Both the position numbers and the translations under genes were made by a program. A DNA stretch of 64,000 nt. Origin: Verrucomicrobiales bacterium (GTDB lineage: Bacteria > Verrucomicrobiota > Verrucomicrobiia > Verrucomicrobiales > DEV007). The stretch lies in the NCBI GenBank assembly GCA_016795385.1, contig JAEUHI010000050.1, positions 62,001 to 126,000 of the forward strand, written 5' to 3'. The notes beneath the pieces are model-generated. The model had not been told where the DNA came from, did not search any database, and was given only the letters and a program-made list of their open reading frames with translations. This document shows, piece after piece, positions 4,882 to 39,429 of the stretch (the first letter of the stretch is position 1; each line of letters starts with the position of its first letter).

Positions 4882-5043
4882 GCCGGAAACGTGGTCCCGC
4901 TCGCGCCCTCGCGCAATCCCTTTGCGCACCCAGCCCCTGCCTGCATCGCGTGATTTCGAGGACGCCCGCCCGGATCACAGCACTTTTGAACAACTCCTCT
5001 TTTCACAAATGCAAACCTTTTTTCACGAATCGAACCAAAATCT

Positions 5044-5071
5044 TTGACTAATCCGATAACTTCTCTATAAA
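5044..5071 (+). promoter_or_regulatory. Sigma-70-type promoter for the RHH gene pair
   Basis: TTGACT (5044-5049), 16-nt spacer, TATAAA (5066-5071). It is followed by a 36-nt leader with the ribosome-binding site GGGAAG at 5098-5103, before the ATG at 5108. The match is close to consensus, and the region is AT-rich in an otherwise GC-rich window. Confidence 0.6.
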
Positions 5072-5107
5072 AATGCCATTGTTATTCCGTTTTTGACGGG
5101 AAGAAAC

Positions 5108-5320
5108 ATGGCCAGGCCCAAGAACACGACCGAGACGGTTCAGATCACGATCTCCACCACCCAACAGGTGAAGGATCTGCTCGAAGAGCTGTCCCGGTCG
5201 GGCTTCTACGGAAAAAACGCCGCCGAGACCGCGCACATCCTCTTGAAAGAAAAAATCAGGGATCTGCAGGTGAGCGGCCAGGCTCCTGGACCGGACTTCT
5301 CTTCGTCGCGGGCGAAATGA
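5108..5320 (+). CDS. Small ribbon-helix-helix-like DNA-binding protein
   Basis: 70 aa. The ATG at 5108 has a good Shine-Dalgarno. An earlier TTG at 5093 in frame is less likely. The pattern TVQITISTTQQVKDLLEELSRS (a beta strand, then a helix), next GFYGKNAAETAHILLKEKI, fits the CopG/ribbon-helix-helix family of small dimeric repressors. Such proteins usually regulate their own operon or act as antitoxins. The stop codon overlaps the ATG of the next gene by 4 nt (ATGA), so the two are translationally coupled. Confidence 0.7.
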   Translation: MARPKNTTETVQITISTTQQVKDLLEELSRSGFYGKNAAETAHILLKEKIRDLQVSGQAPGPDFSSSRAK

Positions 5321-5595
5321 CAATTCCACGACCTCTCAACACCACCGCCCACTCAACCGCCATGTATCTCCCCGAGCCCGCCGACCACTCCAGCAGCTCC
5401 CAAGCTCTCGCCCTGCTCTCCGCCGCGGCGATCGCCCCCTCACAGATCTGTGAGAACGATCCCGAGACGAAGCAGGCCTTTGAGGACAGCCTCCGCGCGC
5501 TCGCCGAAGACATCGTGAAATTCCATCCCGGTCTCGCCCATCTCCTCATCGGGATGAGCGCCACCCCCTGCCCTTTTGTCCACGGGCAAAACTGA
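5317..5595 (+). CDS. Small protein of unknown function, coupled to the RHH gene
   Basis: 92 aa, starting in the ATGA overlap at 5317. An internal ATG at 5362 (MYLPEPAD) is a possible alternative start. The sequence has a helical middle (SQALALLSAAAIAP) and an acidic helical segment (TKQAFEDSLRALAEDIVKFHPGL), with no signal peptide or membrane helix. I recognise no family. Its place directly behind a ribbon-helix-helix gene suggests a partner of that regulator, possibly a toxin-antitoxin-like pair, but no toxin motif is visible. Confidence 0.55.
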   Translation: MTIPRPLNTTAHSTAMYLPEPADHSSSSQALALLSAAAIAPSQICENDPETKQAFEDSLRALAEDIVKFHPGLAHLLIGMSATPCPFVHGQN

Positions 5596-25127: not shown

Positions 25128-26405
25128 ATGAATTTCAGCGATCTCCGCGCGATCCTCCAATACGTGCCGCAATTCCGCGGACGTACCTTCGTGGTCGCGC
25201 TGGACGGTGCGGTGATCGAATCGACGGATTTCTCCAACATCCTTCTCGACCTCGCCGTCCTTCGATCGCTGAGCGTGAAGGTCGTCCTCGTCCACGGGGC
25301 CGCCGCCCAGATCGAGGCGCTCGGAAAAAAGCGCGGCGTCGTCCTCTCGAACATCGATGGCACCGGGATCACCGACGAGCTCACCCTCGAGGTCAGCATG
25401 GACGCGATCTCGCGCCTTTCGAATGCGGTGATGCAAAGCCTCACCACCGTGAAGATCAAGGCCGCCACCGCCAACGCGATCCACGCCCACCCGTCCGGCA
25501 TCATCAAGGGGATCGACCATGGTTTCACCGGCACGGTGGAGAAGATCGACGCGGGCGTGCTCCAGAGCTTCCTCGATCAGGATATCCTGCCCGTCGTGCC
25601 GCCGGTCGGCTTCGACGCCGACGGCCAGACCCTGCGCGTCAATTCCGATGCCGTCGCCCGCGAGGTCGCCACCGCCCTGGGAGCTTCGAAAATTCTCTTT
25701 GTATCGCTCGACGATCCCCGCGATGAGACGGGCGGCCGGGAGAAACAATGGACCGCCGAGGATGCGCTCGCCTTTACCGAAGGCCGCCCCAACCTCCCCG
25801 CCGGAATGCTCTCGAAGCTGCGACAAGCCGCCCGCGCCACGCGCGATGGCGTGCCGCGCGTCCACCTCATCGGCAGCCGGAACCAGGATGCCCTCCTCGC
25901 CGAACTCTTCAGCAACGAGGGCGTCGGGTTGATGGTCTATTCCGACGCCTACCAGAAGATCCGCTCCGGCACCCACGCCGACATCGACGAGCTCTACCTC
26001 CTCATCCACCGCGCCGTCGAGGACGAGGAGCTGATCGAGCGGAGCCGAGCCGAGATCCAGTCCGCGATCCACGACTACATCGTGATCGAGATCGACGGCA
26101 ACATCGTCGGCTGCGTCGCCGTGCATCCGCATCCCTCCGGCGACCGCGGCGAGCTCGCCTGCCTCTACGTGAAGCGCGGCCACACCGGCCAGGGCTACGG
26201 CAGCACCCTCGTCAACGCCGCCGTCGATCGCGCCCGCCAGCTCGGCTTCGATCGTCTCTACGCCCTCTCGACCCAGGCCGCCGGCTACCTCGAGCGCGAA
26301 GGTTTCGCCCGCACCCAGGATCTCGCCCTGCTCCCCGAAGAACGCCGCGACAAGTGGGCGAAAAACGGACGGAATGCGGTGTTGTTGGTGCGTCGGTTAG
26401 GGTGA
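25128..26405 (+). CDS. argA: Amino-acid N-acetyltransferase (N-acetylglutamate synthase)
   Basis: 425 aa from the ATG at 25128; a TTG four codons earlier is unlikely. The N-terminal half is an amino-acid-kinase fold (FRGRTFVVALDGAVIE, VKVVLVHGAAAQIEALG, ILPVVPPVGFDADGQTLRVNSD). The C-terminal part is a GNAT domain (HDYIVIEIDGNIVGCVAVHPH, ACLYVKRGHTGQGYGSTLV, RLYALSTQAAGYLEREGF), the full layout of classical ArgA. It acetylates glutamate with acetyl-CoA at the first step of arginine synthesis and is normally feedback-inhibited by arginine through the kinase-like part. No other arg genes are adjacent. Confidence 0.95.
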   Translation: MNFSDLRAILQYVPQFRGRTFVVALDGAVIESTDFSNILLDLAVLRSLSVKVVLVHGAAAQIEALGKKRGVVLSNIDGTGITDELTLEVSMDAISRLSNAVMQSLTTVKIKAATANAIHAHPSGIIKGIDHGFTGTVEKIDAGVLQSFLDQDILPVVPPVGFDADGQTLRVNSDAVAREVATALGASKILFVSLDDPRDETGGREKQWTAEDALAFTEGRPNLPAGMLSKLRQAARATRDGVPRVHLIGSRNQDALLAELFSNEGVGLMVYSDAYQKIRSGTHADIDELYLLIHRAVEDEELIERSRAEIQSAIHDYIVIEIDGNIVGCVAVHPHPSGDRGELACLYVKRGHTGQGYGSTLVNAAVDRARQLGFDRLYALSTQAAGYLEREGFARTQDLALLPEERRDKWAKNGRNAVLLVRRLG

Positions 26406-26735
26406 ACCGATTTCAACGAGACATTCACCTCCCTGAAGAAGGGACAAAGCCGTATTCAGATGCCGGCCCAGAATCTCCTGTAGCGCTTTTTCGGAAGTAT
26501 TGCCGCAAGTGAGCCAGAGGACGCGTGGCGGACTCCCCTTCCTTTCCAGCAGCTGAACGAAATCGCTGTCCTTGGTCACCACCACGGCATCAGCAAGCCT
26601 GGCTGCCGAGAATATCTCTTCATCAGACGAATCGCGCAGGCCAATTTCCCTAAGGGCCAACGCGGTAACTGAAAAATTTTCGCTGATCCATCGGGCGGTG
26701 CGCGGTGAAAGTTGTGCGTCCACCCAGAGTATCAT
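26397..26735 (-). CDS. DUF5615 PIN-like toxin
   Basis: 112 aa. It starts ILWVDAQLSPRTARWI and has ALREIGLRDSSDEEIFSAAR, DAVVVTKDSDFVQLLERKG and PRVLWLTCGNTS, all typical of DUF5615 (Mut7-C-related PIN-like) proteins. Acidic residues of the nuclease-like centre are Asp 6, Asp/Glu in SSDEE and the DSDF pair. It is usually the toxin half of a toxin-antitoxin pair with DUF433, which is encoded just upstream with a 4-nt overlap. The 3' end overlaps the argA end by 9 nt (convergent). Confidence 0.88.
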   Translation of the reverse strand: MILWVDAQLSPRTARWISENFSVTALALREIGLRDSSDEEIFSAARLADAVVVTKDSDFVQLLERKGSPPRVLWLTCGNTSEKALQEILGRHLNTALSLLQGGECLVEIGSP

Positions 26736-26956
26736 GCCACCAGGAGAGGATGATCGATGCGGCGCCGAGCATAGACCAGGCTCGCCTTGATGTCGTCCGC
26801 TTCAAGATCCGGCATTTCATCAAGGATCTCAGCTGCGTCAAGACCGGCCGCAAAAAGGTCCAAGACATCGCTTACGCGGATTCGCATGCCTCGTATGCAG
26901 GGACGACCACCACATTTTCCTGGATCGACCGTGATACGTTCGAGTAGGTCATTCAT
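26732..26956 (-). CDS. DUF433 antitoxin
   Basis: 74 aa. It reads RITVDPGKCGGRPCIRGMRIRV, VLDLFAAGLDAAEILDEMPDL and DIKASLVYARRRIDHPLL, the DUF433 consensus, with a small winged-helix-like fold. This family is the antitoxin partner of DUF5615 toxins and should bind and neutralise the toxin and repress the operon. Its stop overlaps the toxin start at 26732-26735 (ATGA). Confidence 0.9.
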   Translation of the reverse strand: MNDLLERITVDPGKCGGRPCIRGMRIRVSDVLDLFAAGLDAAEILDEMPDLEADDIKASLVYARRRIDHPLLVA

Positions 26957-26993: not shown

Positions 26994-28232
26994 TCAATAC
27001 GACCCTTGTTCCGCCCCGTGCGCCCGCACCACGAACAAGGTCGTGTCATCCCCGCCCGCTTCTTCCGTGGCCCAGTCGAGGAGCCGTTTCGCGACGAATT
27101 CGGCCGATTGTCCGAGCTTCGCGGCATCCTCAAAACACTCGGCGATGTTCTTGTTCCAGAGTCCGTCAATGACGCCGTCGGAACAGATCAAAAACCAATC
27201 CCCCGGCTCGATCGAGGCGGAGGCGACCTGAGGGGTCACGAATTGACACCCTCCTCCGATGGCCTGCTGCAGCACGTTTTTCCGGGGATGCATGCGGGCC
27301 TCCCGTTCGTTGAACTTGCCCGCCCGGAACTGGGCGCCCACATAGGTGTGATCGAAGGTGAGCTGCTTCAGCTCTCCGTTCCGGTATTGGTAAAAGCGGC
27401 TGTCGCCGACATGGGCGAAGGTCACGCGCGTGCGGTAGAAGAGACCACAAACGACCGTCGCGCCCATTCCCGTCAGCTTGGGATCGCGGTTGCCGACGCG
27501 GGTGACGTAATCGTGCAGCGACTTCACCGCGCGTTCGAGGAGCGATTCCGGATCGGCGGCCCCGTGGAAATCGCCCATCATCGCCGGCAGGAAACGACGC
27601 AGTTCGCGCACCACGAGCGAACTCGCCACCTCGCCGGCGGCCGGACCACCCATGCCGTCACTGACCGCGAAAATGAGACCGTTCCCGTCGATCGATTGCT
27701 TGCCGCAAAGCTCGACGCTGTCGGCCCAACCCATCGCCGAAGAAAAGACCGCGAGCGAGTCCTGGTTGCCGGGTCGGCGCAGACCATCGCGTGAGAGACC
27801 GCACCACTCGAGGGCTCGATGGGCCTCGTCGCCGTCGCTCCGATGTTTGGGATCCTCGAGGATCTTCGCGAGTTCGAAATCAATCACGCAGAATTGCCCC
27901 ATGCGGGAGTTGTAGGTGATGTTCCGCGGAAAGGGATCGTCATGCACGATGCCGAATTCGACCTCCAGCATCTTGAAAAGCTCCGAGGCCCGTTCTTCGC
28001 TGATGCTGCTTTCGGCCGGGGCGCCGCAATTGGTCGTCACGATCGTGAGCGTCTCGGGATCGCTGTCGAGAAGCCGCGGCACGATTTCGCAACCCCGTGC
28101 CTCGAGCGCTTTCAACACCTTCACTTCGTTCTCGAACCGCTCTTCTTTTCCAGTGCCCCGGAAGGTTTTGTGGACACGGCCGTCGTAGCCGACTTTGACG
28201 ATGGAGCGGATGCCGTCTTTGGCGATTTTCAT
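26994..28232 (-). CDS. Fusion of a small atypical kinase-like domain and a PP2C phosphatase
   Basis: 412 aa. Residues 1-~135 look like a compact kinase: Lys 22 on a VHKTF strand, RFENEVKVLKAL helix with the matching Glu, hinge TTNCGAP, catalytic loop HDDPFPRN (His 97, Asp 99, Asn 104, five residues apart as in kinases) and VIDFE with Asp 118 in place of DFG. Residues ~145-405 are a PPM/PP2C phosphatase: RPGNQDSLAV, SDGMGG (191-196), TFAHVGDSRFYQYR, FLICSDGVIDGLW and GGDDTTLFVV. All metal-binding Asps are present. One polypeptide thus has both a putative kinase and a phosphatase. The kinase may act on small molecules or proteins; not known. Confidence 0.85.
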   Translation of the reverse strand: MKIAKDGIRSIVKVGYDGRVHKTFRGTGKEERFENEVKVLKALEARGCEIVPRLLDSDPETLTIVTTNCGAPAESSISEERASELFKMLEVEFGIVHDDPFPRNITYNSRMGQFCVIDFELAKILEDPKHRSDGDEAHRALEWCGLSRDGLRRPGNQDSLAVFSSAMGWADSVELCGKQSIDGNGLIFAVSDGMGGPAAGEVASSLVVRELRRFLPAMMGDFHGAADPESLLERAVKSLHDYVTRVGNRDPKLTGMGATVVCGLFYRTRVTFAHVGDSRFYQYRNGELKQLTFDHTYVGAQFRAGKFNEREARMHPRKNVLQQAIGGGCQFVTPQVASASIEPGDWFLICSDGVIDGLWNKNIAECFEDAAKLGQSAEFVAKRLLDWATEEAGGDDTTLFVVRAHGAEQGSY

Positions 28233-28304
28233 GCAGGGAGGGTTGAAACGGGGGGTGACCGAGACCTTAGAGGTTCACCCGTCCTCCTTCAACCTTCCAT
28301 TCTT

Positions 28305-28400
28305 CTTCTCCTCATACTCCCACTCCTACTCCTACTCAGCGAGCGTCAGTGGCCGTCCGGTTTTGAGTATGAGTATGAGGTAAGAGTAAGAGTAGGAGGA
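28305..28400. repeat. Imperfect inverted, tandemly repetitive element between two minus-strand genes
   Basis: Pyrimidine-rich TACTCC/ACTCCT repeats at about 28305-28337 face purine-rich GAGTAT and AAGAGT repeats at about 28365-28400 on the other side of a GC-rich 27-nt centre. The arms could form a long imperfect hairpin. It fills most of the 174-nt gap between the kinase-PP2C gene and the ABC gene. It resembles short 'actcatactc' tandem repeats I associate with verrucomicrobial genomes (recollection). It could end transcription of the ABC gene. No ORF here. Confidence 0.55.
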
Positions 28401-28406
28401 AAGCCC

Positions 28407-29090
28407 TCACACCCGCTCATCCTCGATGATCTCACCATCCCTCAGGTGGATCTTCCGATCGACACGGTCGAGGAGCCGGTCGTCATGCGTCGAAAAGACA
28501 AACGCCGCGCCCCGGTCCTGGTTGATGCGCCGCATCAGGTCGATGATCAGGTTGGCGTTGTGCGTGTCGAGATTCGCGGTTGGTTCGTCCGCGATGATGA
28601 GCGAGGGATCCGTCACGAGCGCTCGCGCGATGGCAACGCGTTGCTGCTGGCCTCCGCTCATCTTCTGCGGACGATGGTGCATCCGGTCGGAGAGCTCCAC
28701 TTCTCCGAGCAGTTTCTCCGCCCTTGCTTTGGCCTCGGCTTTGGCGACACCGTGGATCTGGAGAGGCAGCATCACATTCTCCAGCGCCGTCAGCACGGGG
28801 ATGAGATTGAAGTTCTGGAAGACAAAACCGATCGAGGCGTTCCTCAGTTCGCTGCGCCGGGCGTCGGTGAGTCCCGCCGCCGGAGTGCCACCGACGTAGA
28901 CTTCGCCCGAAGTCGGTGCATCGAGCAGGCCGATCAGGTTGCAGAGGGTTGACTTTCCGGAACCCGACGGACCCCACACCGCAATGAATTCGTGCTCCTC
29001 GATCACGAGACTGATATCCCGCAGGGCCGACACTTCCGTGTCACCGAAATGGTAGGTTTTTCTGAGATTTTTAGTCTCCGCAACTTTCAT
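28407..29090 (-). CDS. LolD/MacB-family ABC transporter ATPase
   Basis: 227 aa from the ATG at 29090. Walker A is GPSGSGKST, the Q-loop FVFQNFNLIPVLTALENV, the signature MSGGQQQRVAIARAL, Walker B SLIIADEPTANLD, and the switch His lies in STHDD. FQNFNLIP and the tail RDGEIIEDERV mark the LolD/MacB/FtsE group, which moves lipoproteins, lipids or peptides by mechanotransmission. No permease gene is beside it: on one side is a repeat and the kinase-PP2C gene, on the other a divergent glycosyltransferase. Its membrane partner must be encoded elsewhere. Confidence 0.9.
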   Translation of the reverse strand: MKVAETKNLRKTYHFGDTEVSALRDISLVIEEHEFIAVWGPSGSGKSTLCNLIGLLDAPTSGEVYVGGTPAAGLTDARRSELRNASIGFVFQNFNLIPVLTALENVMLPLQIHGVAKAEAKARAEKLLGEVELSDRMHHRPQKMSGGQQQRVAIARALVTDPSLIIADEPTANLDTHNANLIIDLMRRINQDRGAAFVFSTHDDRLLDRVDRKIHLRDGEIIEDERV

Positions 29091-29152
29091 GGGTCCACGG
29101 GTCATTAACGCTTGCAGTCTAGTCGCCCCGGCCCATTTTGCACGGGTTTTCC

Positions 29153-31369
29153 ATGATCGAAAAGTCCTTGCTGGCATTCTGGGGAGTCTGGCTCCTCCTG
29201 ATCCTGATCGCGGCCTTCCGCGTCTTCGGGTTCTCGTTCGCCCGTCGCCGTCAGGATCGCCGTTGGAAGGACGGCTCCGGCCCCCAGAAGCCGGTCGCCC
29301 TCATCGTGCCGGTGAAGGGATTCGACCTGCAATCGACGCCCCGGTTTTTCGACGCGATCTTCGGGCAGACCTATCGCGATTACCGCGTCATCGTCTGTTT
29401 TGAAAGCTGGGACGACCCGGTCGCCCGTTGGCTTTGCGAGCACCTCGAGCTCGATTCCCGCCACCCGGTCTGGACCCATCCCGATCCGACGAGCGGGCTC
29501 CGTGGTGTCACTCTCGTCTGCGGCGGCATTGCCGAAAACGAGGGTCAGAAAGTGCACAATCAGCGCGCCGCCTTCCGCGATCTCTCTTCCCGCGACGCCA
29601 TCATCGCCTTTGCCGACGCCGACATTCTCTGCGGCCCCGACTGGCTCGCGCGTCTCGTGGCACCGATCAACCGGGGACCTTACGAACTCTCCACCACCTA
29701 CCGCTGGCTCGTGCCGCGGCGCCCTACCCTGCCGAACCAGGTCGCGTGCATCATCAATGCCTCGATCACCACCCAAGGCGGAGCCGAGTGGTCCACCGTA
29801 CTCTGGGGCGGTTCGATGGCCCTATCCCGCGAGGTCTTCGACGAGCTCGACGTCCCCACCCTGCTCGCGGGATCTCTCAACGACGACCTCCGCCTCTCCA
29901 AGGCCGCCCGCAAGACCGGCCGGAAGATCGCCTTTGTCCGCTCGCTCATTCTTCCGACCCCGATCGATTTCACCTGGAGCACCTTCTTCGAGTTCGCGCG
30001 ACGCCAGTACACCCAGGTGAAGTTCTTCAGCCCCATCCTCTACACCGGCGTGAATTTCGTGCTCGGCTTTTATGTTTTGGGCGCGATCAGCATCGTCGCC
30101 GCCCTCATCTACGGCTATTTCTTTGCGTGGATCCCCGTGGCCGCGGCCTATGTCATCGATCAGTTCCGGTCGCTCGCACGGCAACAGGTCTACCTCTCCC
30201 TCTTCAAGGAAAACGGCATCCGACAGAAACTCTTCGCCGCCGGCTGGCTCGAGCACATGCTCACCCCTTTCTGGATGACGCTGCACTGGCTCCTCCTCGC
30301 CAGCACCTGGACACAAAACCGGCTCACCTGGGCAGGCGTGCGTTATCAGATTCTTTCCAAATCAAAGACCCGCATTCTCCATCGCACCGCCACGGCGACA
30401 CCGCTTCCGGCCGGTGCTCCGGGTCTGGCGATGCTCACGGCCCTGCATGATCGTCGCCGCAGCACGATGACCCAGCCTATCCCGCCCATCGGATCGGCCA
30501 CCACACCTCTCGAACCCGTCGCCACCTACACCGTGCCCGATGAAAGTGAGCCCGTCGAGGTTGTGGCCACCGAGGCACCGGTCGAGGTCGTCGAAGAAAT
30601 CGCCGCGTCTCTCGAGGAAAGCCCGGTCGCCGGGGAAGCCGCCATTGATGCCCTCGCTGGGATGGTTCCCGACGCGGTGGAGCCCGCGATTTTCGCTGCC
30701 GTCGCCGAGGCCGCGTCGGCGATCGTTCCGCTGACGGTCAGCTATCACCTCCGTCGCGAGCGCGTCCGATCCATTCCGGCAAAAGAACGCGGTGCCCTGA
30801 GTGCTTCCGAATTCCGCCTCGGGAAAACGCGCGCCCTTCCCCACCGGCTCCACACGACCCCGGCTCCCGCTGCAGAAGCGCCGCGTCCGGCGGCAACTCA
30901 GACAACGCTCCCCACGCTCCCCACGTTCCCCGCCCGGCTCTCGCCCCGGAAAGGCCGCGTCCTCACCGCTGTCGAACGTGCCCTCGACAAGACCCGTCAC
31001 CACGGGGCCTCGCATGCTTCGAAGACGACGCTTTCCCCTGCACGCGCCCACCTGTCGCGTCCCCAGCCGCCGGCTCGACTCGAGAGGGTTCGCTCGCGCC
31101 TTCGACCCTCTTGGGTGGCCGCGCCGACGAAACCGGGCTCCGCGTCCGCACCAGCGCCAGCCCGGAAGGTTCCCGCTTCCCGTCCCATCCCGCGTTTTGC
31201 CTCGAGCCGCCCCACCGCGGCCCGCAGTGCCTTGCCGGGAGGAAATCTCGCCGCGTTCGCCCCCGGTCGGGGTGTCCCGGCACGATCGCTGCGTCCGCTT
31301 TCCTCCGGGCGCACCGGATGCCGACCCATCGCCCGACCCGTGCCCGCCGGGGCATCCGCCAGACCCTGA
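29153..31369 (+). CDS. Membrane glycosyltransferase (ceramide glucosyltransferase/HpnI-like) with long basic tail
   Basis: 738 aa from the ATG at 29153. Residues 5-25 are a membrane anchor. The catalytic domain at about 45-290 has KGFDL, FADADILCGPDW (155-157 DAD) and SLNDDLRLSKAARKTGRKIAF, with a FARRQYTQ tail in place of the usual QxxRW. Membrane helices follow at about 300-395, and the GT part ends LTWAGVRYQI near 400. The rest, about 330 residues, is Ala/Pro/Arg/Ser-rich with no visible fold. GT21/HpnI-type enzymes glycosylate lipid acceptors on the membrane. The tail is unusual for the family. Next gene: a very acidic small protein. Confidence 0.85.
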   Translation: MIEKSLLAFWGVWLLLILIAAFRVFGFSFARRRQDRRWKDGSGPQKPVALIVPVKGFDLQSTPRFFDAIFGQTYRDYRVIVCFESWDDPVARWLCEHLELDSRHPVWTHPDPTSGLRGVTLVCGGIAENEGQKVHNQRAAFRDLSSRDAIIAFADADILCGPDWLARLVAPINRGPYELSTTYRWLVPRRPTLPNQVACIINASITTQGGAEWSTVLWGGSMALSREVFDELDVPTLLAGSLNDDLRLSKAARKTGRKIAFVRSLILPTPIDFTWSTFFEFARRQYTQVKFFSPILYTGVNFVLGFYVLGAISIVAALIYGYFFAWIPVAAAYVIDQFRSLARQQVYLSLFKENGIRQKLFAAGWLEHMLTPFWMTLHWLLLASTWTQNRLTWAGVRYQILSKSKTRILHRTATATPLPAGAPGLAMLTALHDRRRSTMTQPIPPIGSATTPLEPVATYTVPDESEPVEVVATEAPVEVVEEIAASLEESPVAGEAAIDALAGMVPDAVEPAIFAAVAEAASAIVPLTVSYHLRRERVRSIPAKERGALSASEFRLGKTRALPHRLHTTPAPAAEAPRPAATQTTLPTLPTFPARLSPRKGRVLTAVERALDKTRHHGASHASKTTLSPARAHLSRPQPPARLERVRSRLRPSWVAAPTKPGSASAPAPARKVPASRPIPRFASSRPTAARSALPGGNLAAFAPGRGVPARSLRPLSSGRTGCRPIARPVPAGASARP

Positions 31370-31393
31370 CAGACCGACCCCACGACCCAGCCC

Positions 31394-31777
31394 ATGCCCG
31401 ATTTTTACGAGGAAGACTTCGTCTACATTGATCGTTGCGCCTTCGTGGTGCGACCGACGTGGAAATTCGCGGCCTGGCTCAACCAGCTCGACAGCGATCC
31501 CGTCGAGGATGAAAACCAGATCTTCATCCAGACGGTCTACCTCGTCGATTTCAACGAACGCCTCGACGCCCGCACCACCACCGACCTGCTCGAGGCCTAC
31601 TACCTGGATATCGCCTCGAGCGAATTCGGGGCCTGGTGGACGGATGAGCAGGATTGGCCGCCCATCCGCAGTCTCAACGATTTCTTCGAATACTTCGAGT
31701 GCGCACCCTCCGAGACCGTGATCGACCTCGCCGCCGATGACGATTACGAGGACCCGGACGAGGACGACCAATTCTGA
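31394..31777 (+). CDS. Small acidic protein of unknown function
   Basis: 127 aa. It starts DFYEEDFVYIDRCAFVVRPTW, has YYLDIASSEFGAWWTDEQDW in the middle, and ends with a run of Asp/Glu residues (about 14 in the last 25). No signal, membrane segment or known domain is visible. It begins 24 nt after the GT gene, so the two are likely co-transcribed. A positively charged tail (GT) next to a strongly negative protein could suggest an interaction, but nothing shows this. Confidence 0.6.
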   Translation: MPDFYEEDFVYIDRCAFVVRPTWKFAAWLNQLDSDPVEDENQIFIQTVYLVDFNERLDARTTTDLLEAYYLDIASSEFGAWWTDEQDWPPIRSLNDFFEYFECAPSETVIDLAADDDYEDPDEDDQF

Positions 31778-31792
31778 ATCCGGGGATTTGGC

Positions 31793-31820
31793 TTGTCCTC
31801 GACGGGGCTGGAGCTATAAT
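31793..31820 (+). promoter_or_regulatory. Sigma-70-type promoter for the CAP gene
   Basis: TTGTCC (31793-31798), 16-nt spacer, TATAAT (31815-31820), 24 nt before the ATG at 31844. The -10 is a perfect consensus. It suggests the CAP protein and following lipid genes have their own transcript start. Confidence 0.6.
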
Positions 31821-31843
31821 CTCCATATTCTTACCTTTCCCGA

Positions 31844-32311
31844 ATGAAGTCGCTCCGCCCCCTGCTTCCCGTCGTGTTGCTTTTCGGATTGATGGCCCCT
31901 GTCGCTCCCGAAGCCTCGGCCGCCAAGTTCACCGGTTACCAGAAAAAGCTGCTCCGCCTTCACAACGAGGCCCGGAACAAGAGGAACCTGCCGCCTCTCC
32001 GCCTGCGCGGAGCGCTCAACACCGCCGCCGTCAAATACGCGCTGGTGATGGATACGAACAATCACTTCGACCACACCGGTCCCGCGCCCGATTTCACCAC
32101 TTTCGACCAGCGCATCAAGACGGAGTGTCCCGATTGCTTCACGACGATGGGTGAAAACATCGCCTTCGGTCAAGCCAATGAGGCCGCCGTCACCACCGCG
32201 TGGATGAAGTCTCCCGGCCACCGGCGCAACATCCTCAACCGCAGTTTCCGCTTCGTCGGCTTCGGCCGCGCCGGTTCCGAGCCCTACTGGGTGACCAATT
32301 TCGGAGGATGA
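31844..32311 (+). CDS. Secreted CAP/SCP-domain protein
   Basis: 155 aa with a signal peptide (LPVVLLFGLMAPVAPEASA). The CAP fold follows: RLHNEARNKRNLPPLRL, NTAAVKYALVMDTNNHFDHTG, TMGENIAFGQ, TAWMKSPGHRRNILN and FVGFGRAGSEPYWVTNFGG. The CAP-type His and Glu (HFDH, GEN, GHRRNI) are conserved. Bacterial CAP proteins are secreted and of unknown activity. The stop overlaps the next ATG by 4 nt (ATGA at 32308), so it is translationally coupled to the CDP-alcohol phosphatidyltransferase. Confidence 0.92.
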   Translation: MKSLRPLLPVVLLFGLMAPVAPEASAAKFTGYQKKLLRLHNEARNKRNLPPLRLRGALNTAAVKYALVMDTNNHFDHTGPAPDFTTFDQRIKTECPDCFTTMGENIAFGQANEAAVTTAWMKSPGHRRNILNRSFRFVGFGRAGSEPYWVTNFGG

Positions 32312-32967
32312 CCTCCGCGCGACGACCACTCCGCACCCGTGACTCCCGCTGGGCGGGTGGCCTCTCGCGTGCCCTGCTGCGACTCGGCCTGCGGCCAAAC
32401 CAGGTCTCCGTCCTCAGCGTCGTCTTTGCCGCGGGAGCCGCGGTGGCCCTCGTGTTTCTCTCCCGGGGTGCGGGTCCGGCGTGGCTCCTCTGGATCCTCG
32501 CCGCCGTCGGCATCCAGCTGCGCCTCCTCTGCAATCTCATGGATGGCATGCTCGCCGTCGAAGGCGGTCTGAAAACCCCGGATGGCGATCTCTACAACGA
32601 GTTTCCCGACCGCCTCTCCGACCCGCTCCTCCTCGCCGCCCTCGGCTATGCGGGAGGCGACGACACGACCCGTCTCCTCGGCTGGCTCTGTGCTATCGGT
32701 GCCCTCCTCACCGCCGCGATCCGCCTCCACGGCGCCACCCTGACAGGACAACACGATTTCCGCGGCCCCATGGCGAAACCCCAGCGCATGGCCCTCGCCA
32801 CCGGCGCCTGCCTCCTCATGGCGGGCCTGGATCTCGCAGGCGGGGCCGCAAAGGAAATCGCGCCGCTGCCCTGGATTCTCGGCTTGCTTCTCGCCGGAAT
32901 CGTCGTCACCATCGTGCGCCGCCTCGTTGCCCTCTCCCGGCTGCTCCACGGGCGCGCCCGATCCTGA
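32308..32967 (+). CDS. CDP-alcohol phosphatidyltransferase with variant active-site motif
   Basis: 219 aa from the ATG at 32308, about six membrane helices. The family motif DxxDGxxAR...GxxxDxxxD appears as NLMDGMLAVEGG...GDLYNEFPDRLSD, with Asn 76 for the first Asp, Val for Arg, and Asn 97 for the third Asp. Asp 79, Asp 101 and Asp 105 remain. It would transfer a phosphoryl-alcohol unit from a CDP-linked donor to an alcohol, or the reverse, in the membrane. It is followed by an acyltransferase and a CdsA-like gene, an arrangement like E. coli ynbA/ynbB. The substrate cannot be read. Confidence 0.82.
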   Translation: MTSARRPLRTRDSRWAGGLSRALLRLGLRPNQVSVLSVVFAAGAAVALVFLSRGAGPAWLLWILAAVGIQLRLLCNLMDGMLAVEGGLKTPDGDLYNEFPDRLSDPLLLAALGYAGGDDTTRLLGWLCAIGALLTAAIRLHGATLTGQHDFRGPMAKPQRMALATGACLLMAGLDLAGGAAKEIAPLPWILGLLLAGIVVTIVRRLVALSRLLHGRARS

Positions 32968-33563
32968 TGCGTTCCTTTCTCGCCGCCCTCGTCCGCCTCG
33001 CCACCGGAGTCCGCCTCCTCCCGGCCACCCCCCACGGCACGGGTCCCGCGATCTACTTCGCGAACCATGCCAGCCACATGGATTTTGTCGTCGTCTGGGC
33101 GGCGCTGCCCGATGACGTGCGCGAAGTCACCTCCCCCGCCGCGGCGGAGGACTACTGGGCCGCGACCCGCCTGCGGCGCTGCATCGCCTGCGAGCTGTTC
33201 CGCGCCGTCCTCATTCCGCGGAAGGATGTGAACCGCGGCAACCACCCCGTCGAACGTCTCGGTACCGCCCTCGAGGCCGGTCGATCCGTCATCCTCTTTC
33301 CCGAAGGTACCCGCTCCGTCGATGGCGGGACGATGGAATTCAAATCCGGTCTCTATCACCTCGCGCGGCGGTATCCTGACATTCCCCTCATCCCCGTGCA
33401 CCTCGAGAATCTCTCGCGCATCCTCCCCAAGGGCTCGCGCCTGCCCGTGCCCCTCATCGCCCAAGCCCGCTTCCTGCCGCCGATGCAGCTCCTGCCCGAG
33501 GAACCGAAGCCCGTCTTCCTCGCCCGCGCCCGCGCCGCCCTCGAGGGCACGGAGCACCCCTGA
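32967..33563 (+). CDS. PlsC-like lysophospholipid acyltransferase
   Basis: 198 aa, starting 1 nt into the previous stop (TGATG). The catalytic block is FANHASHMDFVVVW (HX4D) near residue 31, then RAVLIPRKDVNRGNHP, then SVILFPEGTRSVDG (EGTR). A short LIPVHLENLSRILPKG follows. These are the four acyltransferase motifs of PlsC and its relatives, which add an acyl chain to lysophosphatidate or other lysolipids. At 198 aa it is short but complete. There is no separate membrane helix at the N-terminus beyond a weak hydrophobic stretch. Confidence 0.88.
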   Translation: MRSFLAALVRLATGVRLLPATPHGTGPAIYFANHASHMDFVVVWAALPDDVREVTSPAAAEDYWAATRLRRCIACELFRAVLIPRKDVNRGNHPVERLGTALEAGRSVILFPEGTRSVDGGTMEFKSGLYHLARRYPDIPLIPVHLENLSRILPKGSRLPVPLIAQARFLPPMQLLPEEPKPVFLARARAALEGTEHP

Positions 33564-33572
33564 CCTCCGCCC

Positions 33573-34559
33573 ATGGATCCCGAAACGAAACGACTCCTCG
33601 GCCTCGTCGGCGGCATCCTCGTGATCGCCTCCATCATCGGTTTCATCCTCTCCCGGCGCGCGCGCTCGGAGGCCGCCAAGGCCACGATCGCGAACCTCAA
33701 CGCCCGCATCCGCTCGTGGTGGGTCATGGCCGCGATTTTCAGTGCGACGATCCTCCTCGGTCCCACCTTCACCACCGTGCTTTTCGCCCTGCTCTCCTTT
33801 CTTGCGATGCGCGAATTCATCACCCTCACGCGCACCGACCGCGCCGACCACGAGGTGCTTTTCTGGGCCTTCTTCATCATCCTGCCATTGCACTATCTCC
33901 TTGTTGGGATCGGCTGGTACGGGATGTTCACCATCTTCATCCCCGTCTACGCTTTTGCCTTCATCCCCTTCCGCCGCGTCCTCACGGGTGAGACGAAAAA
34001 CTTCCTCGCCAACACCTCGCGCATCCAGTGGGCCCTCCTCATCTGCGTCTATGCCGTCAGCCACATGCCCATGATCCTGGCGCTGCCATTGCGCGACTAC
34101 GAGGGCGAAAACGCGAAGCTGCTCTTCTTCTTCGTCCTCACCGTGCAGCTCAGCGATGTCCTCCAATACGTCTGGGGCAAGACCTGTGGGAAACGCCCCG
34201 TCGCCCCGCGTGTGAGTCCGCACAAGACCTGGGAGGGCACCGTAGGCGGGATCGGCACCACCGTCCTCATCAGCAGCCTGCTCTGGTGGGCGACGCCATT
34301 CTCGCCCTGGCAGGCCGGACTCATGGCCCTGCTCATCTGCCTCGCCGGCTTCTTCGGCGGCCTCGTCCTTTCCGCCATCAAACGCGATCTCGGGGCGAAG
34401 GATTGGGGCGGCTCGATTGCCGGGCATGGTGGCTTTCTCGATCGCATCGATTCGCTTTGCTTCGCCGCGCCGCTCTTCTTCCACATCACCGGCTTCTGCT
34501 TCGGCACCGGGATGGATCCCCGTCCGCCCGCCTGGATCCTCGAGTGGCTCGGTCGGTGA
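33573..34559 (+). CDS. CdsA-like phosphatidate cytidylyltransferase
   Basis: 328 aa with about eight membrane helices. The CdsA signature is present near residues 270-290: SAIKRDLGAKDWGGSIAGHGGF then LDRIDS, matching the S-x-KR-x4-KD...HGGxxDR pattern. VSPHKTWEGTVGG upstream is also conserved. It would convert phosphatidate and CTP to CDP-diacylglycerol. It starts 9 nt after the acyltransferase, so the three genes form one unit. A second, stand-alone cdsA may exist elsewhere. A dedicated copy here suggests the cluster makes its own CDP-lipid. Confidence 0.92.
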   Translation: MDPETKRLLGLVGGILVIASIIGFILSRRARSEAAKATIANLNARIRSWWVMAAIFSATILLGPTFTTVLFALLSFLAMREFITLTRTDRADHEVLFWAFFIILPLHYLLVGIGWYGMFTIFIPVYAFAFIPFRRVLTGETKNFLANTSRIQWALLICVYAVSHMPMILALPLRDYEGENAKLLFFFVLTVQLSDVLQYVWGKTCGKRPVAPRVSPHKTWEGTVGGIGTTVLISSLLWWATPFSPWQAGLMALLICLAGFFGGLVLSAIKRDLGAKDWGGSIAGHGGFLDRIDSLCFAAPLFFHITGFCFGTGMDPRPPAWILEWLGR

Positions 34560-34616
34560 GGATTTCCCCTTTCCATCGCCGCCACGGAGCCGATACTGGG
34601 GAGGCCAGGCCACGTC

Positions 34617-35645
34617 GTGAACTTCGAGCTCAAAAAGAAAAAGTTCTATCCCGTCCGGGAATCCCTCCTGCCGTATCTGCAGGAGTACGGACGCCTCCTC
34701 CAGGTACCACCGATCTATGAGGAGCTCCATCGCTTTTCCCAACTCTTCCCCCTCTACGACCGCGAGGGACAGGATACCCTCTGGAAAACCGCCTTTTACG
34801 AGCCGACGATCCGGAAAGAACTTTCCCGCCAGCTCATCCAGATCTATTCGCTGCTAAAGACGAACGAGCTCCGCTCGCGCGAGCACCTCGTCCTCGAGCG
34901 CGTCGACTTTTGTGATTTCGGGAACTCGCGGCCCTTCCGCATCCGCATCGTCAACCAGTTCAACGACAACTACGACCACTTCTACGTGAAGATCGCCGAT
35001 GCCTCGCGCATCTACGGGCTCGAGCTCGAGCACGTCCTCTCGCCGAACCGCATCAACTACCTCGTCAACGGCAACACCCTCATCGAGGAGCACATCGCCG
35101 GCGTTCCCGGCGACGTCTTCATCCACCAGTATTTCGACCGTCCCGAAACGAACCGGGTCCGCGTCGCGAAAGAGTTCGTGAAGTTCAACGAGCGCAGCTT
35201 CATCCGCCTCCTCGGCGACATGCGCGCCTACAATTACGTCGTCGACATCACCCCCGATTTCGAAGACGCCCAGTACCGGGTGCGGGCGATCGATTTCGAC
35301 CAACAGTGCTACGAGGGGGCCAAGGAAATGTACCTGCCTCAGACCTTTCCCGAGAACCAGCCGGTCGTCGAGCTCTGCACCACGCGCCTGAATTACCTGA
35401 CGATGCGCCAGTACCAGGACGAGGAGCGCACCCTCATCGAGCGCCGTTGCCAGATCGCCCACAAACGCCTCGCCTTCCTTTGGGAAAACATGTGCCGGGA
35501 GGAGATCGCGCCCGAAGAGCATATCCTGCGCCTCCGCGACGGACTCAATCAATACCACGAGACCAGCGCCTTTTCCGGCTGCGAGACGATGGGCCAGCTC
35601 ACCCGGATGAACCTCGACGTTTCACTGGCAAAAACCAACACTTGA
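34617..35645 (+). CDS. Uncharacterised protein with kinase-like landmarks
   Basis: 342 aa; the start is GTG at 34617, with a GGGGAGG ribosome-binding site 12 nt upstream. I recognise no family. In order it shows HFYVKIADAS (possible strand lysine, Lys 125), LIEEHIAGVPGD (hinge-like, 156-166), LLGDMRAYNYVVD (Asp 201 and Asn 206, five apart, like a kinase catalytic loop) and RAIDFDQQ (Asp 226, like DFG). The N-terminal 100 residues are helical and the C-terminal part is Glu/Arg-rich. So a kinase-like fold is plausible but unproved. It sits between cdsA-like and methyltransferase genes, 57 nt after the former. Confidence 0.6.
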   Translation: MNFELKKKKFYPVRESLLPYLQEYGRLLQVPPIYEELHRFSQLFPLYDREGQDTLWKTAFYEPTIRKELSRQLIQIYSLLKTNELRSREHLVLERVDFCDFGNSRPFRIRIVNQFNDNYDHFYVKIADASRIYGLELEHVLSPNRINYLVNGNTLIEEHIAGVPGDVFIHQYFDRPETNRVRVAKEFVKFNERSFIRLLGDMRAYNYVVDITPDFEDAQYRVRAIDFDQQCYEGAKEMYLPQTFPENQPVVELCTTRLNYLTMRQYQDEERTLIERRCQIAHKRLAFLWENMCREEIAPEEHILRLRDGLNQYHETSAFSGCETMGQLTRMNLDVSLAKTNT

Positions 35646-35714
35646 GCCATCCTTTCCCGTGTTCCCGCTCTCCGGGATCATCCCGCACCGCACCCGACCT
35701 TCCTCCGCTTGTTT

Positions 35715-36332
35715 ATGAATTCCTCCACCGACACCGCGCCCGTCGACAACGCGTTCTCGCACCACACCCAGTTTCTGAAGGCCTTTTTCCGCAGCTCCGC
35801 CCATGTCGGGGCGATCGCTCCGAGTTCAGGCGAGCTCTCCGCCATCCTTGCCGACACCGTGGACTGGGATCGCGTGGAGTGCGTCGTCGAATACGGACCC
35901 GGCACCGGCGTGGTCACCGAGGAGATTGCCCGCCGCCTGAAGGGCCGCACCCGCTTTTTCGCGATCGAGCGCGACCCCGCCCTCGCCGCCATCGCCCGCC
36001 GCCGCTGTCCGAGTGTCGAAGTGATCGAGGACTGCGTCACCCGCGTCCCCGAGCTCTGTCGTGAACGCGGCATCGAGAAGGTCGACGCCATTCTCAGCGG
36101 CCTGCCCTGGGCCTCCTTTCCCTCTTCGCTCACCGAGGAAATCCTCGCCGCCACCTTCGAGGTGCTGCCGGAAGGCGGAAGGTTCGCCACCTTCGCCTAT
36201 TGGCAGGGCCTCCTCATGCCCGGCAGCCGCCGCTTCCGCCAGCTCCTCCGCGAGCAGTTCGGCTCGGTCGAGCGGAGCGAGACCGCCTGGCGCAATCTGC
36301 CGCCCGCCTTCGTCTACCGCTGCGTCAGATAA
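35715..36332 (+). CDS. Class I methyltransferase of the phospholipid N-methyltransferase (PmtA-like) type
   Basis: 205 aa from the ATG at 35715. It begins FLKAFFRSSAHVGAIAPSS and has VVEYGPGTGVVTEEIARRL (SAM-binding GxGxG), FFAIERDPALAAIARRR and ILSGLPWASFPSS. The opening with GAIAPSS and the SGLPW block are typical of PmtA-type enzymes, which methylate phosphatidylethanolamine or related lipids. rRNA adenine methyltransferases share the fold but not this opening. Placement behind the lipid genes supports a lipid substrate. It is 69 nt after the kinase-like gene. Confidence 0.85.
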   Translation: MNSSTDTAPVDNAFSHHTQFLKAFFRSSAHVGAIAPSSGELSAILADTVDWDRVECVVEYGPGTGVVTEEIARRLKGRTRFFAIERDPALAAIARRRCPSVEVIEDCVTRVPELCRERGIEKVDAILSGLPWASFPSSLTEEILAATFEVLPEGGRFATFAYWQGLLMPGSRRFRQLLREQFGSVERSETAWRNLPPAFVYRCVR

Positions 36333-36359
36333 GAGGGTCAGATGCCCGACCCAACAGGG

Positions 36360-36809
36360 TCAGGTCGGATCACTCAGCGCGTAGCGTTTCCGCCAGCTCT
36401 CCGGAATCGCGAGCCGCAGGCCGTAGAGGTAACGGATCAATTGCCCCTGATGAGCGGCCTCGTGCTCGAGCCAATCGAGCAAAAAGCCTTGTTGCTCCGC
36501 CGAAAAGCCATCGATCAGAGGAAAGACATCACGGGCTTCCCGGGCCGATCGCGCCAAAGCGGCTGCGACCGATTCCTTTTCCAGCGGCGCCACGAGCGAG
36601 CAGGAAAAGCCGGCCCATCCTCCCGTTTGAATGGCGAGGGTGTAGCTCTCCCGCGCGCCCACGACGCACCAGAGTTGCAGCCCGATCGCATTGGAAGGAA
36701 GTCCGGGCAACGATTCCCCAAGCACCGCCTCATCGAGCGAAGCGACGAAGTCGTCGTAGAGCGTGAAGGAACGCTCGAGCCGCGAGGCGAGGACGGTGGC
36801 GAGGGACAT
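36360..36809 (-). CDS. DinB-family protein
   Basis: 149 aa from the ATG at 36809 (GTG one codon earlier possible). It reads SFTLYDDFVASLDEAVLG, IGLQLWCVVGARESYTLAI, a middle helix and DWLEHEAAHQGQLIRYLYGL near the C-terminus. This four-helix layout, with an H...E/H-xxxH-Q end (HEAAHQGQ), fits DinB/DfsB-type metal-binding proteins, often thiol-dependent enzymes. The true activity is not evident. Confidence 0.72.
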   Translation of the reverse strand: MSLATVLASRLERSFTLYDDFVASLDEAVLGESLPGLPSNAIGLQLWCVVGARESYTLAIQTGGWAGFSCSLVAPLEKESVAAALARSAREARDVFPLIDGFSAEQQGFLLDWLEHEAAHQGQLIRYLYGLRLAIPESWRKRYALSDPT

Positions 36810-36901
36810 CACGGTCGATCGTGCCAGAAAGTGGCGGGCTTGTCACGCCTGTCATGCCAATCCGCTTTACAAGCTCCCCCCGGATTCCCTACCCTCACCC
36901 C

Positions 36902-37966
36902 ATGACCGCCATCGCCCCGCTCCCCTCCTCCACCTCTGCCTCTGCCTTCCGTCCGCGCAATGGGGCGATCCTCACGACGGGTATACTCTTCGGAATCATC
37001 GGCCTGATGCTCGGCGGATCGGGAGCGATGACGATGGTGCAGACGCTGATGATGAGCCAACTCGCCAAGACCGATCCGAAGGCGATGAGCGAGTTCGGCG
37101 GCATGCAGGACATGATGTGGACGGCCTCGATCGTGAATCTGGTGATCTACGGCGGCCTCGGCCTTCTTTTCATCGCGGTGGCCTACGGATGCTTCGCGGG
37201 GCGCCGCTGGTCGCGTCCTTTTGCCCTGACCCTGGCATGGGGGTGGATCTACATGGGAGTGACGATGTTCCTCTCGCTGGCGGTCATGATGGGCGGAATG
37301 CGGGACATGATGTCGGGGATCATGGAGAGCGCTGCCAAAACCTCGCCCCAGGCACCGCCGATGCCGGCGATGGATGGATTTTTCACCATCATCATGGTGA
37401 TCTACTTCGTGATGATCGTGCTCTTCATGATCGTCCTTCCGGCGGTGATCGTCTGGCTGCAATGGGGGGCGGAGGTGCGCCTCACCCTCGAGTCCCGTGA
37501 TCCGGTGCCTCGCTGGACCGATCGCCAACCGGCTCCTCTCCTCGGCATGGCGATCGCGGCGGCGCTCTTCGGACTCTGCTCGCTGCCCTATCTTTTCATG
37601 ATGGGCAGCTCGTTTTTGAAACCCTTCCTCCCGGAAGGCCCGCTCAAGCATTTTTGGATCGTCGTGCCCTTCGTCTGGGCTTACATCGCCTGGGGCAGCT
37701 ACCGGAGGCAACTCGCCGCCTGGATCCTCGCGCTGGGCCTGCTCGCGGCGGGGACCTGGATCGGCGTCCACACGATCCAGAGGATCGATTGGGCCGACGC
37801 CTTCTCACAAATGGGCATCCCCGGGATGGAGCCGGGCGATCTCGCGAAGTGGATGGAGAGTCTTTTCCAACCCACCCGCATGCTCGTGATGATGGTCGGC
37901 TCGATCCTGCCCTTGCTCGGCTACCTGATCTGGGTGCTGCGGTATTTCCGTCGCGTCGAGTTGTGA
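36902..37966 (+). CDS. Met-rich multi-pass membrane protein of unknown function
   Basis: 354 aa from the ATG at 36902. Six to eight hydrophobic helices alternate with short loops. Methionine is frequent, for example SLAVMMGGMRDMMSGIME and GGMQDMMW. I recognise no family and no catalytic motif. It has its own upstream gap, and the Gfo/Idh/MocA gene converges on it 19 nt later. Met-rich loops can bind Cu(I), but membrane-protein Met content alone is weak evidence. Confidence 0.65.
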   Translation: MTAIAPLPSSTSASAFRPRNGAILTTGILFGIIGLMLGGSGAMTMVQTLMMSQLAKTDPKAMSEFGGMQDMMWTASIVNLVIYGGLGLLFIAVAYGCFAGRRWSRPFALTLAWGWIYMGVTMFLSLAVMMGGMRDMMSGIMESAAKTSPQAPPMPAMDGFFTIIMVIYFVMIVLFMIVLPAVIVWLQWGAEVRLTLESRDPVPRWTDRQPAPLLGMAIAAALFGLCSLPYLFMMGSSFLKPFLPEGPLKHFWIVVPFVWAYIAWGSYRRQLAAWILALGLLAAGTWIGVHTIQRIDWADAFSQMGIPGMEPGDLAKWMESLFQPTRMLVMMVGSILPLLGYLIWVLRYFRRVEL

Positions 37967-37985
37967 GAACTCCGGGGGCGGACGG

Positions 37986-39110
37986 TCACCCGATCTTCAC
38001 CCGTTGACCGTTCTCCATTGAGGCGGCGGCGGCTTCGAGAACTTTCAGACTCTTCACACCGTCGCGGAAATTCGGCTCGACACTACCGCCCCGGGCACAG
38101 GCGTCGAGGAAATCGACGGCGGCATGCACGAAGGCGTGTTCGTAGCCGATGATGTGTCCGGGCGGCCACCATTTGCCGACATAGTCGTGGCAGCTCTCGG
38201 TGACGAGGATATCGCGGAAGCCACGACGATCGGCCGGGTCGCCCTCGGAGTAGAACTGGAGACGGTTCATGTCCTCCATGTCCCAGGTGATGGCGCCTTT
38301 GCTGCCATAGACCTCGAAGGTGTGACGGTTGCGGCGTCCGGTGGAATAGCGGGTCGTCTCAATCGTGGCGAGGGCGCCGTTCCGGAATTCGCCGGTCATG
38401 AGAGCGGCACACTCGACCTCGACCTGGCCGGTCTTCGAGGGATCTTCGGCAAGGGGACGCTCTTTCGTGAATTGTTTGCCCCGGCAATCAATCTCGGCGA
38501 AATCGCCGACGAGGAAATGGGCGAGGTCGATCGCATGCGAACCGAGATCCCAGAGCGGACCTGCAGCGGCGGCGGCTTTGCGCAACTTCCAATCGAGGGG
38601 ATGCTGCGGATTGACGAGCCAGCTCTGCTGGTAGGCGCCGCGCCAGTGGTAGATCTCGCCGAGTTCGCCCTCGTCGATCATGCGTTTGGCGAGAAGGACG
38701 GCGGGGCAGCGGCGGTAATTGTGGTTCAGATAGTGCACGACACCGGCTTTCTCGGCGGCGGCGAGCATGGCCTCGCCCTCGGCGAGGGTGTTGGCGAACG
38801 GCTTTTCGCAGAAGATGTGTTTGCCGGCCTCGGCGGCGGCGATGGCCATCTCGGCATGGAGGTAGGTCGGGGTGGCGATGTCGATCGCATCGATGTCGTC
38901 GCGTCGCAGCACCTCGCGCCAGTCGGTGGCGATCTCGGCCCAGCCCCAGCGGTCGGCGAAGGCCCGCAGTCCGGCCTCGTCGCGGCCGCAGGCGACCTGC
39001 ATCACCGGCCGGGCGGCGGGATCAAAATACTTCGCGACCTGATTCCAGGCGTTCGAATGGGCTCGGCCCATGAAGCGGTGGCCGACGATGGCGATGCGGA
39101 GTTCCTTCAT
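37986..39110 (-). CDS. Gfo/Idh/MocA family oxidoreductase
   Basis: 374 aa from the ATG at 39110; an extension to 39683 would cross the whole antiporter leader. The N-terminus RIAIVGHRFMGRAHSNAW is an NAD(P)-binding GxxxxGxxH. Then DIDAIDIATPTYLHAEMAIAAAEAGKHIFCEKP carries the conserved EKP. LNHNYRRCPAVLLAKRMIDEGELG and DLGSHAIDLAHFLVGD give the typical DxGxHxxD active-site block. These enzymes oxidise or epimerise sugars or inositols. Substrate unknown. Confidence 0.9.
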   Translation of the reverse strand: MKELRIAIVGHRFMGRAHSNAWNQVAKYFDPAARPVMQVACGRDEAGLRAFADRWGWAEIATDWREVLRRDDIDAIDIATPTYLHAEMAIAAAEAGKHIFCEKPFANTLAEGEAMLAAAEKAGVVHYLNHNYRRCPAVLLAKRMIDEGELGEIYHWRGAYQQSWLVNPQHPLDWKLRKAAAAAGPLWDLGSHAIDLAHFLVGDFAEIDCRGKQFTKERPLAEDPSKTGQVEVECAALMTGEFRNGALATIETTRYSTGRRNRHTFEVYGSKGAITWDMEDMNRLQFYSEGDPADRRGFRDILVTESCHDYVGKWWPPGHIIGYEHAFVHAAVDFLDACARGGSVEPNFRDGVKSLKVLEAAAASMENGQRVKIG

Positions 39111-39429
39111 ACGTGGCAGGCGATAGCGCGTCCCGGAGGCGGAGGAAAGCGTTTTTTCCCGGCCGCGGGACGCTTTCTTCGTGAAGCGATTCGACGGATC
39201 CGGCACGAAATTCGCTAGATCGGCTCCATCCGGAGACAGCCGCCCGTGCCCCCCGGACGGAAGCCTCCCCGCATCTGAAAACCTTCTCGTATACAAAACA
39301 TCCCTCACCGAGAAAACCGCTTTTTTCCCGTCGATTTTTTCAAAAGCCCTCCTAAGCTCGCCCTCGCCCGGGATCGTGGTCCGCCCACAGAAGCCCCTGA
39401 CATTCCTCCCTCTTTTTGAAAGTCCACCC
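39111..39429. other. Divergent intergenic region (319 nt)
   Basis: No ORF or tRNA is seen. It holds a GC-rich hairpin at 39145-39177 (GAAAGCG with CGCTTTC, enclosing CCCG/CGGG) and, further on, the multi-stem candidate RNA described separately. The last 130 nt before the antiporter start are pyrimidine-rich and unstructured to the eye. Confidence 0.7.
39199..39257 (+). promoter_or_regulatory. Candidate structured leader RNA upstream of the antiporter
   Basis: A nested fold is readable: TCC (39199-39201) with GGA (39255-39257), GGCACG (39202-39207) with CGTGCC (39245-39250) and, inside, CGGCT (39221-39225) with AGCCG (39238-39242), capped by a small TCC/GGA hairpin. A CCCC bulge lies on the 3' side. 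It ends 172 nt before the antiporter ATG. Li+/Na+-responsive leaders (nhaA-I type) are known upstream of Na+/H+ antiporter genes, including some verrucomicrobial ones. I cannot match this to their consensus by eye. Confidence 0.4.

Follow-up and report, generated by a model that had tools for sequence, protein, structure and literature searches.

A putative minimal Arc1/Ynb-type phospholipid cassette lies within a resident gene row of a Verrucomicrobiales bacterium

Overview

We analyzed a row of eight genes, termed GT, SAP, CAP, CDPPT, PlsC, CdsA, KIN, and MT in their order of occurrence, within a 64,000-nt stretch of DNA (the window) from a Verrucomicrobiales genome that is 94% complete (G000). 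The eight genes constitute two unrelated units, a resident GT-SAP-KIN-MT row and a CAP-CDPPT-PlsC-CdsA cassette that interrupts it. We consider it fairly probable that this two-unit reading holds with the CDPPT-PlsC-CdsA trio as a minimal auxiliary phospholipid pathway of the Arc1/Ynb type.

Gene organization of the window

All eight co-directional open reading frames (ORFs) listed by a preceding sequence-only reading were found on the plus strand (Table 1), and both overlaps that it had reported were verified, 4 nt between CAP and CDPPT (ATGA) and 1 nt between CDPPT and PlsC (TGATG). Its family names for GT, CAP, PlsC, and CdsA are backed by profile searches, and that of MT is backed loosely, while Pfam and NCBIfam profile searches returned no family match for SAP. 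Judged by eye, CAP likely carries a signal peptide. The promoter-like site before CAP is the single one in the 28900-36450 region, where 0.8 such sites are expected by chance. Two neighboring minus-strand ORFs at 26397-26956 are DUF5615/DUF433-like by eye and represent a possible toxin-antitoxin pair.

Table 1. Features of the eight-gene row and its surroundings, with positions in the window
Feature	Position	Strand	Description
GT	29153..31369	+	GT21/HpnI-like glycosyltransferase with disordered tail; resident, outside the cassette
SAP	31394..31777	+	Small acidic protein, 34 D/E vs 6 K/R; resident
CAP-CDPPT-PlsC-CdsA cassette	31778..34553	+	No counterpart at the equivalent position of G035 (sister species)
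Sigma-70-like promoter	31793..31820	+	TTGTCC-16-TATAAT, directly 5' of CAP; weak evidence
CAP	31844..32311	+	CAP-domain protein, PF00188 2e-16; cassette accessory in this genus
CDPPT	32308..32967	+	YnbA/Arc1A-type CDP-alcohol phosphotransferase (predicted)
PlsC	32967..33563	+	Lysophosphatidate acyltransferase-like, PF01553 1e-20; motifs NHASHMD and FPEGTR
CdsA	33573..34559	+	Second CDP-diacylglycerol synthase (predicted), PF01148 2e-64; YnbB/Arc1F clade
KIN	34617..35645	+	GTG start; kinase-like, family unassigned; resident, conserved across the order
MT	35709..36332	+	TTG start; OlsG/PmtA-like methyltransferase, under curated cut-offs; resident, adjoins KIN

Two units rather than one locus

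The assignment of all eight genes to one locus is contradicted by synteny, which places the cassette between SAP and KIN of the resident row. The gene order LolD followed by GT-SAP-KIN-MT occurs with the cassette absent in the sister species G035 (locus L097) and in four further congeners (L100-L103), and SAP lies between GT and KIN in five congeners. Comparison of the window with L097 by blastn revealed collinear matches at 27010-31777 and 34554-39156 and zero match between them; the resulting surplus of the window, 31778-34553 (2.78 kb), corresponds nearly to the base to CAP-CDPPT-PlsC-CdsA. The SAP-KIN gap of L097 contains a small ORF that by eye resembles MazG, and 46 bp similar to the motif region of CDPPT; the local score of this similarity is 42, whereas 500 shuffles reached at most 34. 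The G035 site thus seems to keep a CDPPT remnant, which points to probable loss of the cassette in this species. Repeats at the cassette ends showed no convincing insertion signature, and the GC3 values of cassette and resident genes are alike, giving no sign of recent foreign origin.

In the congener G051, the CAP-CDPPT-PlsC-CdsA genes and KIN are located on separate contigs. CAP also precedes CDPPT there (locus L038) and is 72% identical to the window CAP; this genome accounts for the one case in which CAP adjoins a cassette among the named cassettes (the best 80 of at least 577 candidates). A single pathway of all eight genes, in which GT would glycosylate, KIN phosphorylate, and MT methylate the product to give a non-standard phospho- or glycolipid, would agree with the co-directional genes, the small gaps, and the tight overlaps within the cassette. 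However, this scheme is very unlikely, given the five congeners that have GT-SAP-KIN-MT with no cassette in between and the finding that GT, SAP, KIN, and MT homologs stand beside 0 of the same 80 related cassettes (the best of at least 577 candidates); the location of the sole promoter-like site right before the cassette also argues weakly against it.

The KIN result bears further on the proposal that a core of CDPPT, PlsC, CdsA, and the kinase-like gene is kept together in other genomes, which holds for the first three genes and fails for KIN. The latter is conserved independently of the cassette. Of 94 genomes of the order, 58 contain KIN, mostly with 54-96% identity over near-full length; the family is mostly single-copy, occurs in 24 of 30 genera sampled, and is missing from all g12 genomes (2.2-3.5 Mb). 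The label "kinase-like" stems from motifs recognized by eye; searches with KIN were negative against Pfam and NCBIfam and gave nothing significant in the PDB, and its single-sequence structure prediction had a pLDDT of 39.

Conservation of the CDPPT-PlsC-CdsA trio

The predicted functional core of the cassette is the CDPPT-PlsC-CdsA trio. The idea of such a module for an extra phospholipid was borne out as regards its presence and its joint conservation. PlsC and CdsA adjoin CDPPT in 20 of the 31 fetched loci of the order, a count that leaves out the loci of a divergent CDPPT paralog, and the trio stands together in 63 of 80 named loci (the best 80 of at least 577 confirmed candidates). Among the matches listed, trio-bearing records span about ten phyla, although some of these records are metagenome bins whose taxon labels may be wrong; the record titles name Verrucomicrobiota, Pseudomonadota, Bacteroidota, Planctomycetota, and Acidobacteriota, as well as Bdellovibrionota, Actinomycetota, Campylobacterota, Omnitrophota, and Gastranaerophilales. 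Rhizobial plasmids bear the trio with matching annotation. Several related loci contain a CDPPT without adjacent PlsC or CdsA, and no CDPPT relative was found in viral contigs and phages. The g17 genus has a CDPPT without PlsC or CdsA alongside (L045, L048, L053, and L073) in a conserved neighborhood, with an MFS transporter gene among its members in L045.

Exactly two CdsAs were found in G000 and in each of 12 further cassette genomes, compared to one each in G035 and G061, congeners without the cassette. The housekeeping CdsA shares its family and signature with the cassette CdsA, but the cassette copies form a separate clade, and in the CdsA tree a branch supported at 100/99 sets them apart together with YnbB. 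Besides the housekeeping CdsA, G000 encodes three canonical CDP-alcohol transferases. In the transferase tree, which has poor inner resolution and several long branches, these three are split by a 99/99 branch from the transferases of the trio, YnbA/Arc1A, and the genus paralog.

Kinship with the ynb and arc1 clusters

The term "undescribed," which had been applied to the locus, is too strong, since the same gene set is represented by E. coli ynbAB(CD) and P. aeruginosa arc1. The E. coli ynbABCD cluster encodes homologs of CDPPT (31%, E 3e-7) and of CdsA (YnbB, 41%, E 4e-64) and has the same Asn-Asn motif in its transferase; however, it has YnbC and YnbD and lacks PlsC, which is present in the window trio. 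Two genomes, G025 and G085, combine a window-type CDPPT, CdsA, and PlsC with ynbC and ynbD homologs that come after them, which links the module to ynbABCD.

In Pseudomonadaceae, the order CDPPT-ynbC-ynbD-PlsC-CdsA was observed in 12 of 14 fetched ynbC neighborhoods. The L243 locus, fetched as a ynbC neighborhood and belonging to P. aeruginosa or a closely related bacterium, contains the cluster CDPPT-ynbC-ynbD-X-PlsC-CdsA. The deletion primers for PA2541, whose sequences are printed in the published study (PMC8926400), map to L243 positions 4894, at the start, and 5533, at the stop, of the CDPPT ORF 4906-5541; since they bracket this ORF, arc1A corresponds to a YnbA-type transferase, and the gene order agrees with arc1A-F. 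No genome matched a PA2541 upstream primer when this was used as a search pattern. According to the arc1 literature, five of the six arc1A-F genes are phospholipid-related, the cluster is controlled by Gac/Rsm, and its mutants are less fit under T6SS attack; the other five PA numbers were assigned from the gene order and from this five-of-six statement. Our search of the literature on ynbA-D and the PA numbers yielded nothing relevant beyond the arc1 work.

Like the window, the P. aeruginosa arc1A-F cluster (PA2541-PA2536) combines a homologous Asn-Asn transferase, PlsC, and CdsA. The window CdsA and PlsC are 52% and 45.5% identical to the proteins at the Arc1F and Arc1E positions of L243, respectively, and the window CDPPT shares just 36% identity with Arc1A over 87 residues. 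The arc1 cluster additionally has YnbC, YnbD, and a small protein, whereas the window trio is minimal; the window differs further by the upstream CAP and by a Val at the motif position where Arc1A and YnbA retain Arg. In its membership, the window contains a YnbA/Arc1A-type transferase clustered with a YnbB/Arc1F-type CdsA, as in the module at large, and a PlsC within the cluster, as in the arc1 type. Searches of G000 for YnbC gave neither a PF12147 match nor a match to the YnbC of L043, although absences in this genome could be assembly gaps, as it is 94% complete. PF12147 was likewise not found in the majority of the cassette genomes that were searched; YnbC is therefore not essential to the core. 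The window cassette, judged by its homologies, is a minimal variant of the known Arc1/Ynb-type phospholipid module and not a full arc1 or ynbABCD cluster.

Fold and altered motif of CDPPT

CDPPT has no Pfam match but matches the NCBIfam models of archaetidylinositol- and phosphatidylinositol (PI)-phosphate synthases and, by PDB profile search, solved structures. Its AlphaFold model (pLDDT 91) has the superfamily fold, with query TM-scores of 0.66-0.75 against the structures of PI-phosphate synthases and AF2299. The changed motif noticed in the sequence-only reading was confirmed as N-x2-D-G-x2-A-V-x8-G-x3-N-x3-D, compared to the canonical D-x2-D-G-x2-A-R-x8-G-x3-D-x3-D. The first and third Asp (D1 and D3) are replaced by N76 and N97 and the Arg by V84, and the second and fourth (D2, D79; D4, D101) are retained. 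CDPPT, which fails the canonical motif but has the fold, is therefore filed as a superfamily variant rather than a canonical member.

Each of the 78 ORFs examined from the named loci (the best 80 of at least 577) has Asn at D1 and D3. The count is partly biased for D3, since Asn at this position was demanded by one of two search patterns, whereas neither pattern covered D1. Both positions are also Asn in the orthologous loci of the order, which were found without patterns, and in YnbA and the Pseudomonas Arc1A-type proteins, which keep the motif Arg. A genus paralog of CDPPT (L064, G000:C49:71415-71981; L065-L068) has a more decayed motif, with Glu at D101 in the aligned rows, and a conserved neighborhood that includes an Amidase_3 gene in L064.

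In canonical enzymes, the motif Asp residues at D1 and D3 bind metal, and the Asn-Asn change could abolish the usual metal-dependent catalysis. The recurrence of this change in the named-locus ORFs, the pattern-free order loci, and YnbA/Arc1A would suit a CDPPT that is non-catalytic for phosphatidyl transfer and acts as a CDP-diacylglycerol sensor or scaffolds PlsC and the second CdsA. We regard such a role as quite unlikely, because 37 sequences show no variation at D79, D101, the glycines, and many polar positions, and the predicted fold resembles those of active enzymes. The Asn-Asn motif need not mean a dead protein, as the deletion of arc1A has a published phenotype; this phenotype speaks against an inert protein without establishing catalysis, and loss of a scaffold could give one too.

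Proposed pathway

Based on homology, we propose that PlsC would acylate lysophosphatidate to phosphatidate, from which the second CdsA would form CDP-diacylglycerol with CTP, and that the YnbA/Arc1A-type transferase would then move the phosphatidyl group onto an alcohol, probably not inositol phosphate, to give a distinct product. The trio would run alongside the housekeeping CdsA and the three canonical CDP-alcohol transferases.

The nearest NCBIfam and PDB neighbors of CDPPT, being archaetidylinositol-phosphate and PI-phosphate synthases, would fit a PI-phosphate synthase pathway, and the fold and D2/D4 are common to CDPPT, the PI-phosphate synthases (PgsA1, 6h53/6h59; PIPS, 6wmv), and AF2299 (4o6m). 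They differ at D1 and D3, which are Asn in the window CDPPT and Asp in the solved enzyme of the profile alignment. However, inositol-1-phosphate synthase (PF07994) was not found in G000, where import or an assembly gap is possible, nor in 9 of 12 other cassette genomes searched, in a search whose controls were positive, which makes inositol phosphate an unlikely acceptor. E. coli has ynbA and is not known to make PI. Altogether, we consider PI-phosphate synthesis extremely unlikely.

The role of the proposed pathway is probably conditional envelope-lipid synthesis or repair, modeled on the defense of arc1 against lipase effectors. In P. aeruginosa, arc1A is required for full resistance to lipase effectors, and defense against T6SS lipase effectors has been published for arc1A in this species only; since arc1 contains YnbC and YnbD, this phenotype might not carry over to the minimal trio. 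The same resistance, together with the apparently intact PlsC and CdsA, would also be compatible with a pure repair module, in which, after attack by phospholipases, lysophosphatidate and phosphatidate would be turned back by the trio into ordinary phospholipids or CDP-diacylglycerol and no new lipid would be made. We find this unlikely, as it does not account for a transferase that is dedicated to the module and has an invariant motif of its own, and the accessible part of the arc1 study ties lysolipid accumulation to Arc3A and Aas (PMC8926400).

Biological significance

The arc1 cluster has been flagged as a defense cluster by two published screens, in which the lipid made is not stated. We tentatively suggest, as a possibility on the lower side of even, that a transferase family whose metal site is rewired to Asn-Asn, and which has a PlsC and a CdsA of its own to supply it, may produce an undescribed phospholipid for envelope defense or repair in about ten phyla. 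Since the compact trio recurs across about ten phyla, its product can be sought in harmless bacteria, and the conserved Asn-Asn motif offers an exact site for testing.
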